NCBI RefSeq assembly: GCF_030009775.1
Contig: NZ_JASCTH010000011.1
Coordinates: forward strand, 186,001 to 250,000
Direction: 5' to 3'
Length of the DNA stretch: 64,000 nucleotides
DNA from: Actinoplanes sandaracinus
Lineage (GTDB): Bacteria; Actinomycetota; Actinomycetes; Mycobacteriales; Micromonosporaceae
The translations under genes were made by a program, and so were the position numbers. Position 1 is the first letter of the stretch. Every line of letters starts with the position of its first letter. Shown here one piece after another: positions 15,531 through 19,636 of this stretch. A model generated the notes under the pieces. It had not been told where the DNA came from, searched no databases, and was given only the letters and a program-made list of their open reading frames with translations.

Positions 15531-15597
15531 TTATCCCCGATCTCGTCCCGCATGCTGGTCGGCGGAGTGCAGGGTGGCTCACGTCGCAGGCGATGAG

Positions 15598-15629
15598 TTG
15601 CTAAAGTCTTTCGCAAAAGTCTTTAGCAA
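15598..15629. promoter_or_regulatory. 32-bp palindrome overlapping the SD of the AlbA_2 gene
   Basis: TTGCTAAAG...CTTTAGCAA is symmetric about 15613.5 with 14 of 16 positions paired. Its right arm ends in the AAGGA ribosome-binding site, so a bound protein, or a folded RNA, would block both transcription and initiation. Confidence 0.75.
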
Positions 15630-15637
15630 GGATGCTT

Positions 15638-17356
15638 ATGACTCCCGAAGAACTGGCTCGCCTGATAGCACTCCTGCGCCGCAGTGGCACTGATCTCCAC
15701 GACGTGGAGGTCAAGGCTGCGGGCGGCGGTCTACCAAAGTCGGTTCGGGACACATTGAGCGCTCTCAGCAATGATCGAGGCGGGACTGTGATCCTCGGGT
15801 TGGACGAGGCGTCGGGCTTCCGTCCCGCTGCAGGTTTCGATGCCGCCCGAATCCGCGACGCACTGGCTTCGGCATGCAACGACGATCTGCATCCGCCGGT
15901 ACGCAGCGAGATCGAGATCGTGCCGTTCGAGGATGCCTTGGTGGTCATCGCTGAGGTAGGGGAACTCGACCCCCGTTTCAAACCCTGCTACGTGGCCGCG
16001 CGCGGTGAGTACAACGGTTCATTCACCCGTGGCGGCGACGGAGACCGTCGTCTGACCGACTTCGAGATCCATCTGCTGCACACGAACCGGGGACAGCCCG
16101 ACGACGATAGACAACCCGTGCCCGGCGCAACCCCAGCTGATCTCGACGAAACGGAGGTACAGCTTCTTCTAGCGCGCGTCCGCCAGAGGCAGCCACGAGC
16201 CTTCGCAGATCTGGGAAGCCAGCAGGCGCTCCGCCGACTCAACGTCCTAGCCGAAGATTCATCCAACATCCTTCGGCCGACGCTGGGCGCCCTCCTCACC
16301 TTGGGCGTCTACCCTCAGCAATTCTTTCCTCAACTGAACGCCACCCTGGTCGTGTACCCCGGCACATCCAACCAGGATGTCCCGGCCAACGGCCCGCGAT
16401 TCTTGGAGAACCGATCATTCGACGGTCCAGTCCCCATCATCGTGGACGAGGCGGTCAGCGCTGTCCTCCGGAACACCTCGGTCCGTTCGTTCATTGACGG
16501 CAGCGGCCGGATTGACCGATACGACTACCCGGCAGAAGTGATCCGTGAGGCGATCGCCAATGCACTTCTGCACCGTGACTACTCGTCCTACTCCCGCAGC
16601 ACCCCGGTGCAGATCACGTTGTACTCGGACCGTCTAGTCATCGCCAATCCCGGTGGACTGTTTGGCGCCGTCACCGAGGACGATCTGGGTGGTGAAGGGG
16701 TCACCTCTACTCGTAACCCGGTCCTCGCCCGCTTATTACAGGACGTGCGCCTCCCTGAAACTGGACGCATGGTCTGCGAGAACCGCGCAAGCGGAATTCC
16801 CACCATGCTCCGGGAGCTCCGGAGAGCCGGTTCGCCTCTTCCCGAGTTCCACAACCGCATCACCCGATTCAAGCTCCTTCTCCCCCGGCACACTTTGCTG
16901 GACGACGAGACAACAGCCTGGATCGCTGAACTGGGGCAGCAGAATCTGACCGCCACACAACAACTAGCGCTCGCGGAGATGCGCTCAGGCCGGGCGGTCA
17001 CCAATTCCTCTATGCGAAACCTCGGCTTGGAAGCTCACCGGGCAACCGCCGAACTCGCGGATCTTGTTCATCGTGGAATCGTGGTTCGCGTCGGAGAGCG
17101 TCGTCATTCGCGCTACCTTCTCGCTCCGCGCGAGGAGCAGCTGGCGTTGGACCTCAACTCAGGCGTAAGTGACGTGGAAATCGTTCTACGGGCCTTAACC
17201 GGCGGCTCCGAGCTGAGCCGCCGCGACATCGAGGAGCGCACTGGCCTGAGCTACATGAAGGTGCTGCGCGCTTTGCACAAGCTGGAGGCCGCCGGCCAGG
17301 TGCATCCCACAGCGCCGCCGCGCTCGCCACTACGCCGATACAGATCGGCTCACTGA
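15638..17356 (+). CDS. AlbA_2 (Schlafen-like) / HATPase_c_4 ATP-binding protein
   Basis: This 572-aa protein has an N-terminal AlbA_2 domain (about residues 20-130; VEVKAAGGG...SNDRGGTVILGLDE). A central GHKL-type region has the motif YPAEVIREAIANALLHRDYS. A C-terminal winged helix ends in SYMKVLRALHKLEAAGQV. Such proteins are annotated as RecG-like regulators, and some occur in defence islands. The second ATG (15638) has AAGGA at the right distance and is preferred to 15632. Codon use differs from its neighbours: TTA codons at 16733, 16736 and 17195, and lower GC. That suggests transfer or bldA-type control. Confidence 0.85.
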   Translation: MTPEELARLIALLRRSGTDLHDVEVKAAGGGLPKSVRDTLSALSNDRGGTVILGLDEASGFRPAAGFDAARIRDALASACNDDLHPPVRSEIEIVPFEDALVVIAEVGELDPRFKPCYVAARGEYNGSFTRGGDGDRRLTDFEIHLLHTNRGQPDDDRQPVPGATPADLDETEVQLLLARVRQRQPRAFADLGSQQALRRLNVLAEDSSNILRPTLGALLTLGVYPQQFFPQLNATLVVYPGTSNQDVPANGPRFLENRSFDGPVPIIVDEAVSAVLRNTSVRSFIDGSGRIDRYDYPAEVIREAIANALLHRDYSSYSRSTPVQITLYSDRLVIANPGGLFGAVTEDDLGGEGVTSTRNPVLARLLQDVRLPETGRMVCENRASGIPTMLRELRRAGSPLPEFHNRITRFKLLLPRHTLLDDETTAWIAELGQQNLTATQQLALAEMRSGRAVTNSSMRNLGLEAHRATAELADLVHRGIVVRVGERRHSRYLLAPREEQLALDLNSGVSDVEIVLRALTGGSELSRRDIEERTGLSYMKVLRALHKLEAAGQVHPTAPPRSPLRRYRSAH

Positions 17357-17560
17357 ACAACGGCGCAGTCGCCCAGCTCACACCCAGCGGCATGCGGGCA
17401 CCGTTATTCGGTAGACAAGGAGCTGGAATCGCGTAGCGTGGAGGGCCGCTTGACGGCCGTGGTGAGCATGCACCGCAGCGGGCGTCCCCGCGCCGGAGAA
17501 CGGCCTACCCGCCCTCCGGATACGCGAGCAAGCCCTGATCAGCCCTTCCGAGGACGACCT

Positions 17561-19636
17561 GTGCCTGCCCCTGAGCTAGACATGGAACTCGCCGCCGAAC
17601 GTACCCATCTGACCGCGTCACGGGCCGCGCTGCGCCGGATGCGCGACCGCGCCCAGGCGCTGTTCTCCACCGGTGACCGGGTCGCCGGGGACTCCTACAC
17701 CGCCGAACAGCTCGGCCGGCACATGGCCCGCCGGGTCAAGGAGCTGGCCGACGACCCGGACACCCCACTGTTCTTCGGCCGCCTCGACATCGAAAGCCGC
17801 CCCGACGCCGAAAACCGCCTCGACACCGGAAGCCGCCTCGGCATCGAAAACCGCCCCGACATCGGGAAGGAGACCTTCCACATCGGGCGGCGGCACGTCA
17901 CCGACGACGCCGGTGAACCGATGGTGCTGGACTGGCGGGCGCCGCTCTCCCGGTCCTTCTACCGGGCCAGCGTGCGAGATCCGCAGGGCATCGCCACCCG
18001 CCGCCGGTTCGGGTTCGTCAAGGGGGAACTGACCAGCTTCGAGGACGAGCATCTGGACCGCGGCGAGGAGCTCGGCACCAGCAGCCGCATCCTGACCGCC
18101 GAGATCGAGCGGCCCCGCGTCGGCCCGATGCGTGACATCGTCGCGACCATCCAGCCGGAGCAGGACGAGCTGGTCCGGGCCGATCTCGCCGACTCGATCT
18201 GCGTGCAGGGCGCGCCCGGCACCGGCAAGACAGCGGTCGGTCTGCACCGTGCCGCCTACCTGCTCTATCTGCACCGGGAGCGGCTGCGCAAGTCGAAGGT
18301 GCTGATCGTCGGGCCGAACACGGCGTTCCTCTCCTACATCTCCGCGGTGCTGCCGACTCTCGGCGAGGTCGAGGTGCAGCAGTCCACGCTGGACGACCTC
18401 GTCACACGGGCGCCGGTCAAGGCGGTCGACACACCCACGGCCACGGCGATCAAACATGACGTACGGATAGCCGAGGCCCTCCGCCGCACACTGTGGAACC
18501 GGATCACCCGGCCGACCGAGCCGATCATGGTGTCGGACGGTTCCTACCGGTGGCGGATCGACATCGAGCCGCTGCGCCGGATCATCGACGAGGCCCGCCG
18601 CGAGGAACTGCCGTATTCGGTCGGGCGCGAACGGGTCCGGGCCCGCGTCGTCGGCCTGCTGCAGCTCCAGTCGGAGTACCGGACCGGCAACTCGCCGGGC
18701 GACTCATGGCTTCGGAAGATGAGCAAGATCGGCCCGGTCACCGGCTTCCTGGAGGCGACCTGGCCGGCCGTCACCGCGGAATCGCTGGTCGCGGCTCTGC
18801 TGACCGATCCGTCTGCGGCCGGTGACCTGTTCACCGAGCAGGAGCAGGAAGCGATCCGCTGGGTCAAGCCGCCGAAGACCGCGAAGTCGGCCAAGTTCAG
18901 CGCGGCCGATCTGGTGCTGCTCGACGAGGCCGCGGGGCTCCTGGAGCGGGAGACCAGTTTCGGTCACGTCGTCATCGACGAGGCTCAGGACCTCTCCCCC
19001 ATGCAGGCTCGTGCGATCGCCCGGCGCAGCGAGCACGGCTCGATCACGCTGCTCGGTGACCTGGCGCAGGGCACCGACCCGTGGGCGGCGAACGACTGGC
19101 GTGACATCCTGCGGCACCTCGGCAAACCGGACGCGGCCGTGGTGCCGTTGACCGTCGGTTTCCGCGTACCGGAAGCTGTCGTGGCCCTGGCCAACCGCCT
19201 CCTGCCGGCGCTCGGGGTGAATGTGCCGGAAGCGGTGTCGCTGCGCCGCGACGGTGATCTCGCCGTCCGGGCGGTGAGCGAGGCCGACCTGGACGGCGCC
19301 GTCATGGCCGAGGTGACCGCGGCCCTGGCGCACGAGGGTTCGGTCGCGGTGATCGCGGCCGACACCGCGGTGGAGCGGCTCCGCGCGCACCTGGACGCCG
19401 CCGGGATCGGGCACGCGACGCCCGACGACGTCGACTCCGAGGCGCGCGTCATGGTGGTCCCTGCGATGATCGTCAAGGGCCTCGAGTACGACCACGTCAT
19501 CGTGCACGAGCCGGCCGACATCGTGGCCGCCGAGCCGAAGGGCCTGAACCGCCTCTACGTGGTGCTCACCCGGGCGGTGAGCCGGCTTTCCGTGCTGCAC
19601 GCGAAGCCGTTGCCGGAAGCGCTTACGCTCTCGTGA
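17561..19636 (+). CDS. HelD-like UvrD/Rep superfamily 1 helicase
   Basis: This 691-aa SF1 ATPase has a coiled N-terminal region, Walker A GAPGTGKT, Walker B VVIDEAQDLSPMQ and C-terminal motifs around VMVVPAMIVKGLEYDHVIV. In Gram-positive bacteria HelD removes stalled RNA polymerase from DNA and can give rifampicin tolerance. This protein is of that class by length and layout. GTG 17561, eight bases after CGAGGA, is preferred to longer starts. Residues 76-102 hold a tandem hexapeptide expansion. The stop overlaps the next start. Confidence 0.85.
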   Translation: MPAPELDMELAAERTHLTASRAALRRMRDRAQALFSTGDRVAGDSYTAEQLGRHMARRVKELADDPDTPLFFGRLDIESRPDAENRLDTGSRLGIENRPDIGKETFHIGRRHVTDDAGEPMVLDWRAPLSRSFYRASVRDPQGIATRRRFGFVKGELTSFEDEHLDRGEELGTSSRILTAEIERPRVGPMRDIVATIQPEQDELVRADLADSICVQGAPGTGKTAVGLHRAAYLLYLHRERLRKSKVLIVGPNTAFLSYISAVLPTLGEVEVQQSTLDDLVTRAPVKAVDTPTATAIKHDVRIAEALRRTLWNRITRPTEPIMVSDGSYRWRIDIEPLRRIIDEARREELPYSVGRERVRARVVGLLQLQSEYRTGNSPGDSWLRKMSKIGPVTGFLEATWPAVTAESLVAALLTDPSAAGDLFTEQEQEAIRWVKPPKTAKSAKFSAADLVLLDEAAGLLERETSFGHVVIDEAQDLSPMQARAIARRSEHGSITLLGDLAQGTDPWAANDWRDILRHLGKPDAAVVPLTVGFRVPEAVVALANRLLPALGVNVPEAVSLRRDGDLAVRAVSEADLDGAVMAEVTAALAHEGSVAVIAADTAVERLRAHLDAAGIGHATPDDVDSEARVMVVPAMIVKGLEYDHVIVHEPADIVAAEPKGLNRLYVVLTRAVSRLSVLHAKPLPEALTLS
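17786..17866 (+). repeat. 18-bp in-frame tandem repeat inside the HelD-like gene
   Basis: About four and a half degenerate 18-bp units (first unit GACATCGAAAGCCGCCCC) encode the hexapeptide DIESRP and variants. They sit between the N-terminal helices and the ATPase core. Confidence 0.8.

Follow-up and report, generated by a model that had tools for sequence, protein, structure and literature searches.

The window, a 64,000-nucleotide stretch of Actinoplanes sandaracinus DNA, carries an accessory gene for a Schlafen-type protein composed of an AlbA_2 domain, a GHKL-type ATPase domain and two winged helices. Its promoter contains a short repeated word that, in the genome of the window, is confined to this promoter; among homologs the word turns over, and its identity is linked to that of the second, C-terminal winged helix (wHTH2). 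The gene is probably a patchily distributed, self-repressed Schlafen-type effector whose private operator is recognised by the C-terminal winged helix of the protein itself. Self-regulation through wHTH2, with binding deduced from sequence comparison, is the firmest part of this reading and appears highly probable. That the protein is a nuclease effector has an even chance, and an anti-phage role falls slightly short of that. The features of the locus are given below in window coordinates.

15589–17404, no strand: approximate accessory segment, absent where mqnA adjoins the uvrD-like gene; bounds set by eye, ±10–20 bp
15598–15629, no strand: candidate operator, an imperfect palindrome, with AAGWCTTTAGCAA copies at 15598–15610 (−), 15617–15629 (+) and 15604–15616 (+, one mismatch)
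15628–15632, + strand: Shine–Dalgarno-like AAGGA, sharing the final two bases of the operator; read from the sequence
15638–17356, + strand: Schlafen-type gene, stop included; preferred start ATG 15638, picked from homologs, alternative ATG 15632
15701–16054, + strand: SLFN_AlbA_2 domain, predicted nuclease; Pfam, profile match to solved Schlafens, acidic residues kept
16601–16882, + strand: HATPase_c_4, GHKL-type ATPase domain; Pfam, structural match to histidine kinase
16733–16738, + strand: two adjacent TTA codons, only the first common to two orthologs (L032, L033)
16898–17131, + strand: first winged helix (wHTH1), from the model; AbiEi_4 match below cut-off
17159–17353, + strand: second winged helix (wHTH2), varying with the operator word, from the model and covariation; MarR_2 match below cut-off
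17195–17197, + strand: third TTA codon; read from the sequence
17252–17290, + strand: predicted recognition helix of wHTH2, residues 539–551 counted from ATG 15638
17438–19636, + strand: UvrD-like helicase gene, conserved beside several orthologs; counted as outside the system

The open reading frame spans 15632–17356, and its product has 572 or 574 aa, depending on whether translation starts at ATG 15638 or ATG 15632. ATG 15638 appears to be the better start: its position is the start in 78 of 136 homologs and lies no more than 9 nt from it in 131, an agreement partly built in by the rule that assigned to each homolog the start codon nearest to the expected position. A scan for sigma-70 promoters and terminators found no match. 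The gene is present in one copy in the 10.19-Mb genome, and its closest named relative, with about 85–86% identity, is found in Actinoplanes flavus (L030).

Pfam detects AlbA_2 with 32.1 bits (cut-off 25.3) and HATPase_c_4 with 80.1 bits (cut-off 26), the MarR_2 and AbiEi_4 matches being under their cut-offs; no NCBIfam model matched the protein. PADLOC returned only partial pAgo-type matches, in agreement with the AlbA_2–pAgo fusions recorded in the accessible portion of PMC6299218. The structure predicted from 49 sequences of the window and related loci has a mean pLDDT of 87.7; model residues 232–420 align with a histidine kinase (Z 9.6, 124 residues), and a profile built from the 49 sequences hits solved Schlafens, including 5yd0 and 7lrc (best E 5.8e-6). 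In the ATPase domain, E304 and N308 do not vary across the 132 aligned homologs. An E occupies position 24 in 132/132, while position 19 is D or E in 131/132 and position 57 is E or D in 130/132; these three positions we take to be the Schlafen acidic catalytic triad. The retention of the acidic and ATPase residues suggests a working nuclease and ATPase.

The first-pass annotation had described a 32-bp near-perfect palindrome with the ribosome-binding site in its right arm. The palindrome is genuine: its arms (15598–15611 and 15616–15629, with a 4-nt spacer) are complementary at 13 of 14 positions, and the pattern has no match in 100 shuffles of the window. The placing of the ribosome-binding site was overstated, since the palindrome overlaps AAGGA by 2 nt without containing the whole of it. 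The 13-mer AAGTCTTTAGCAA, with up to one mismatch, occurs three times in the 10.19-Mb genome, always within the operator; a search for the operator as a whole, allowing three mismatches, returns a single site there. Orthologs L030–L034, L155 and L159 conserve the operator, which is diverged in L035 and L156.

A search of 15 genomes for AAGWCTTTAGCAA located the word at the promoter of the Schlafen-type gene in eight carriers; two stray single-mismatch sites lie off the promoter (G022 and G128). The word was not found in two carriers with diverged words (G018 and G164), nor in five genomes without an ortholog of the window gene, four of which (G028, G065, G041 and G047) have no homolog at E ≤ 1e-30, the fifth (G016) having a homolog of 44% identity whose word is different. 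The AAGWCTTTAGCAA pattern read backwards, used as a control, gives 0–4 matches per strand; lone one-mismatch hits or absence from a genome are therefore uninformative alone, and it is clustering at the promoter that counts. In the AAATGTAA clade, paired words are present in 15 of 17 genomes, and 22 of the 23 sites are upstream of the family's gene. The remaining site (G644 contig 39, 10031–10050) lies apart from the homologs known in that genome and may belong to another family member or be a second target.

This confinement bears on an unlikely alternative, according to which the protein is an ordinary one-component ATP-sensing regulator of itself and other genes, with AlbA_2 and GHKL used for sensing or oligomerisation and not for cutting RNA. 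Two winged helices and operator repeats would suit such a regulator, and a solved relative, 3LMM, is listed with function unknown in the part of PMC8780604 available. A set of further targets is, however, hard to reconcile with a word that, in the window's genome, has no location other than the gene's promoter, although a target with a weaker site could escape, and with the distribution of the paired AAATGTAA sites; the acidic residues, kept in nearly all homologs, also argue against a purely sensory AlbA_2 domain.

Promoter repeats are common among the homologs. Exact 7-mers recurring on either strand in the 110 bp before the start were compared with dinucleotide shuffles; arrays at p < 0.01 precede 91 of 132 homologs, with 41 failing this threshold, versus 19 of 283 control promoters, which are upstream regions of other long ORFs at the same loci. 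The 132 homologs are what is left of 166 loci after removal of nine in which the match begins after residue 70, two that were too short, 19 duplicate proteins and four with a start more than 30 nt off. When each clade below 60% core identity is represented once, repeats are found in 20 of 29. Among the 94 homologs with a clear word, 74 have four or five copies, the last of which ends a median of 13.5 bp before the start. Same-strand spacings (n = 221) concentrate at 10–12 bp (126) and 19–22 bp (63), about one or two helical turns. The words vary by member and include TTGCTAAAGTCTT in the window's clade, CTTCACAC, CTTCGCAC, CTTAACAC, CTGTGTGG, TCACTG, ACAACTTA, AAATGTAAC and others.

In the window the palindrome abuts the Shine–Dalgarno sequence, as would be expected of an RNA hairpin that hides the ribosome-binding site and is perhaps bound by AlbA_2. 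This explanation is extremely improbable. All copies found face one way in 11 of the 94 homologs with a clear word (L017, L022, L164 and L166 among these), so that no palindrome is formed, and the hairpin was rejected as a general mechanism; moreover, the spacings follow the helical turns of DNA, and the word is linked with a winged helix.

Some distant homologs were inspected by eye. On a faecal phage clone (L203) the homolog is preceded by a run of TTTAGTGTTGATC repeats, at 1230–1400, and on an Acetoanaerobium plasmid (L201) by three TTTGYATAAAA repeats; phage clones L202 and L204 have no obvious array. The array of L203 means that promoter arrays may extend beyond Actinobacteria.

The covariation tests, which took in 97 of 99 full-length proteins, connect the word with wHTH2. 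When pairs are matched for identity outside wHTH2, those sharing a word are more alike in wHTH2 in all six identity bins holding both kinds of pair. The partial correlation with word sharing is 0.213 for wHTH2 (p 0.001, from a permutation that ignores relatedness) and is not significant for wHTH1, AlbA_2 or GHKL. Across the 29 clades, word sharing rises with resemblance in the recognition helix of wHTH2 (r 0.277) and in the remainder of that domain (r 0.323; p 0.0002 each), while AlbA_2, the middle region and GHKL all give p > 0.1; wHTH1 as a whole gives p 0.53, but its recognition helix gives p 0.004 and 0.008. In 37 phylogenetically disjoint pairs the wHTH2 effect has the same direction and is not significant (p 0.13 with 7-mers, 0.08 with 6-mers). 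The top covarying column, L543, falls inside the predicted recognition helix of wHTH2; D111, E353 and A77, outside wHTH2, are also high among the covarying columns. In proteins about 80% alike, helices starting with SRN, SRR and SRT accompany the words CTTCACA, CTTCGCA and CTTAACA, respectively; in the SRT group, the word finder returned no clear word for L102. Taken at the level of sequence, these results suggest that word and C-terminal winged helix of the encoded protein change in step.

Binding of the word by the encoded protein is an inference, and the repeats could be bound by another regulator, such as a host factor or a phage repressor. This is quite improbable: the words differ between homologs in a way that tracks the encoded protein's wHTH2, and the window's word is absent in the five tested genomes without an ortholog. 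The self-repression that had been proposed from the palindrome thus gains as a candidate, resting on a word that is linked to the gene, limited to its own promoter in the window's genome and variable along with the winged helix. A promoter motif of this kind could serve activation as well as repression.

The second winged helix is the least constrained domain, with pN/pS of 0.30–0.36 versus 0.08–0.20 elsewhere and no value above 1. Positive selection on the recognition helix was considered and rejected (pN/pS is 0.21 where the word is shared, over 36 pairs, and 0.30 where it differs, over 18 pairs). None of the 18 co-resident homolog pairs examined in 14 genomes, a set that leaves out some copies in G012, G316, G565 and G621, such as those lacking a usable upstream region, share a repeated 7-mer; since sharing is rare among distant proteins anyway (63 of 4,293 pairs), this does not establish selection for orthogonal words.

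The distribution of the gene is patchy. A homolog at E ≤ 1e-30 is present in 23 of 67 genomes of the genus; seven of these carriers, including that of the window, have a close homolog (72–100% identical), and the others have homologs of 40–47% identity. At E ≤ 1e-60, homologs are found in 42 of 300 genomes in the family and 33 of 394 in the class. The neighbouring gene mqnA is present in 67/67 genomes of the genus, and of 30 mqnA loci read, just two have the Schlafen-type gene adjoining it, namely the window and L179, which represents the L030 site. Nine of the 28 other loci have a uvrD-like match within 1.5 kb of mqnA, eight of them at a distance of 75–427 bp. The segment missing elsewhere consists of the operator, the gene and a few tens of flanking bases; inspection by eye revealed no transposase, integrase, inverted ends or target duplication, and both loss at an old site and gain of the gene are possible. 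The patchy presence, together with the adjacency of mqnA and the helicase gene in genomes without it, supports the view that the Schlafen-type gene is accessory; universal conservation with the same codon use, part of what would have spoken against the earlier proposal, was not seen in this comparison. An ortholog of Winogradskya consettensis (L037; also L007 and L158) has no match before residue 102 and carries an in-frame stop within the match, and is therefore probably a decaying copy.

The UvrD-like gene is a common neighbour within the ortholog group, through either old synteny or partnership. It follows the Schlafen-type gene in the window, where it is on the same strand, and in L030, L155 (with mqnA about 2 kb upstream) and L032; the unit may therefore hold two genes, the protein working with the helicase. 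Fragments of uvrD-like genes flank the Schlafen-type gene on both sides in L033, and in L031 and L035, where the gene adjoins mqnA, the uvrD-like gene is located about 2 kb further downstream. A two-gene unit is nevertheless highly improbable. Eight relatives have the helicase gene beside mqnA and no Schlafen-type gene, so the helicase is probably the old neighbour of the site; conversely, L034 and L159 have the gene without a helicase within 6 kb on each side. Neither mqnA nor a uvrD-like gene was found within about 6 kb in L034, L159, L036 and L156. The UvrD-like gene of the window gives weak PADLOC matches to GajB; in Dactylosporangium (L032 and L033) uvrD-like genes occur in extra or broken pieces. 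In the window's copy, about five 18-bp tandem units are located at 17779–17868, within its N-terminal coding part.

The search for co-occurring defence genes gave a largely negative result, with two positive loci. The window locus, flanked by mqnA and the UvrD-like gene, has neither a known defence gene nor a recognisable BREX gene beside it. The neighbour scan covered 93 of 181 listed proteins, from 46 of 48 loci; four of the 93 are type I specificity proteins, and no Pfam family is found in more than four. A recurrent partner gene, such as a toxin–antitoxin pair would have, was thus sought across the 46 loci and not found, but the uvrD-like gene is frequent beside the orthologs of the window gene. 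The positive loci are Geodermatophilus L039 and Brevibacterium L052, in which the homolog sits after hsdM and hsdS; in L039, an ORF of hsdR size comes after the homolog.

The three TTA codons reported earlier (16733, 16736 and 17195, two of them adjacent) are real and unusual for the region: they account for three of the four TTA codons of the window, counted over 17,344 codons of mechanically chosen ORFs of at least 200 aa. In the earlier reading, such codons were taken as a frequent mark of bldA-dependent or recently acquired genes in Actinobacteria. A bldA-type developmental switch, in which translation is gated by TTA codons, would draw on their number and adjacency in a nearly TTA-free region and on codon 366, which is also TTA in Dactylosporangium L032 and L033 (two of nine orthologs compared). 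It is very improbable, as none of the nine has TTA at codon 367 or 520, no TTA is present in L030, at 85% identity, or in L031, L034, L035 and L159, and just 17 of 64 homologs from GC-rich loci contain TTA. The switch is thereby weakened as a candidate, with no TTA codon conserved. The lower GC content noted earlier was borne out, GC3 being 0.70 in the Schlafen-type gene versus 0.91 and 0.89 in two neighbour genes. Coding GC falls short of that of the surrounding DNA in 70 of the 84 homologs whose flanks are long enough to compare; low GC thus characterises the family as a whole, which fits horizontal movement.

According to the model favoured here, the locus would be an accessory element, most likely of one gene, in which an AlbA_2 nuclease and a GHKL ATPase are fused to their own repressor, formed by the two winged helices. 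The second of these would read the repeated word of the gene's promoter, which is present virtually nowhere else in the genome, and expression of the gene would thus be kept low. A trigger, perhaps phage infection, acting via the ATPase or via loss of operator binding, would raise both the amount and the activity of the protein; AlbA_2 would then cut RNA, probably tRNA, and growth would be arrested.

A broader and rather doubtful proposal is that the family comprises mobile, mostly one-gene immune elements, each with its own lock (the word) and key (the winged helix) changing together; the co-resident pairs with no shared 7-mer agree with it. If it is true, several such elements can coexist in one cell without mutual silencing, an element would fire on entry into a cell that lacks its repressor, and operator diversity would be selected, as in phage immunity groups. 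The control of bacterial immune genes is poorly known, and here the question of what switches a bacterial Schlafen on becomes testable with one gene and its own promoter. The natural series of words and recognition helices may make a winged-helix DNA code readable and, if binding is confirmed, would provide a set of naturally distinct self-repressors.

The union of an effector with its own regulator has a parallel in the C-protein–REase fusions, whose effector and regulator are of kinds unrelated to those of the window protein. In these fusions, as proposed here, effector and transcription regulator are combined in one protein, but they belong to a type II system with a methyltransferase partner (PMC3850674, available text). 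RptR represses its own defence-island promoter via three direct repeats and so resembles the window protein in having repeats in its own promoter; it is, however, a separate 9-kDa protein whose TAGCTA site is reported to be highly conserved, whereas the word of the window's family changes between relatives (PMC12255303, portion available).

TrlG, an AlbA_2–HATPase_c_4 protein that arrests growth of Photorhabdus on warming, shares both domains with the window protein; according to the accessible sections of PMC7554251, its wild-type allele is dominant and, unlike the window gene, it is encoded in an operon of three genes, with TrlR as a small putative regulator distinct from it. The best structural match is DIP2311 (PDB 3LMM), which is alike from AlbA_2 to the ATPase and, by profile, to the C-terminal end, with 16–20% identity; its function is given as unknown in the available text of PMC8780604.

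The closest described proteins are fusions of a Schlafen domain, a minimal histidine kinase and a wHTH, predicted to be anti-phage RNase effectors, encoded beside BREX and listed as BREX back-up RNase effectors (PMC12839542, in part). Their domain order (AlbA_2, GHKL ATPase, wHTH) is the same as in the window protein. They are BREX-linked, whereas the window gene has no recognised BREX neighbour, and operator repeats, present before the window gene, are not mentioned in the portion of that paper available. The locus had been put forward as an undescribed single-gene system; the protein itself has thus been described, and a single gene is likely, with some uncertainty owing to the conserved helicase neighbour downstream. 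Searches of one open library, which leaves most subscription papers and bioRxiv uncovered, turned up no description of private operator repeats for this family of proteins. As far as these searches tell, the kind of protein is already known, and what is new is a private, diversifying, self-only operator tied to its own winged helix.
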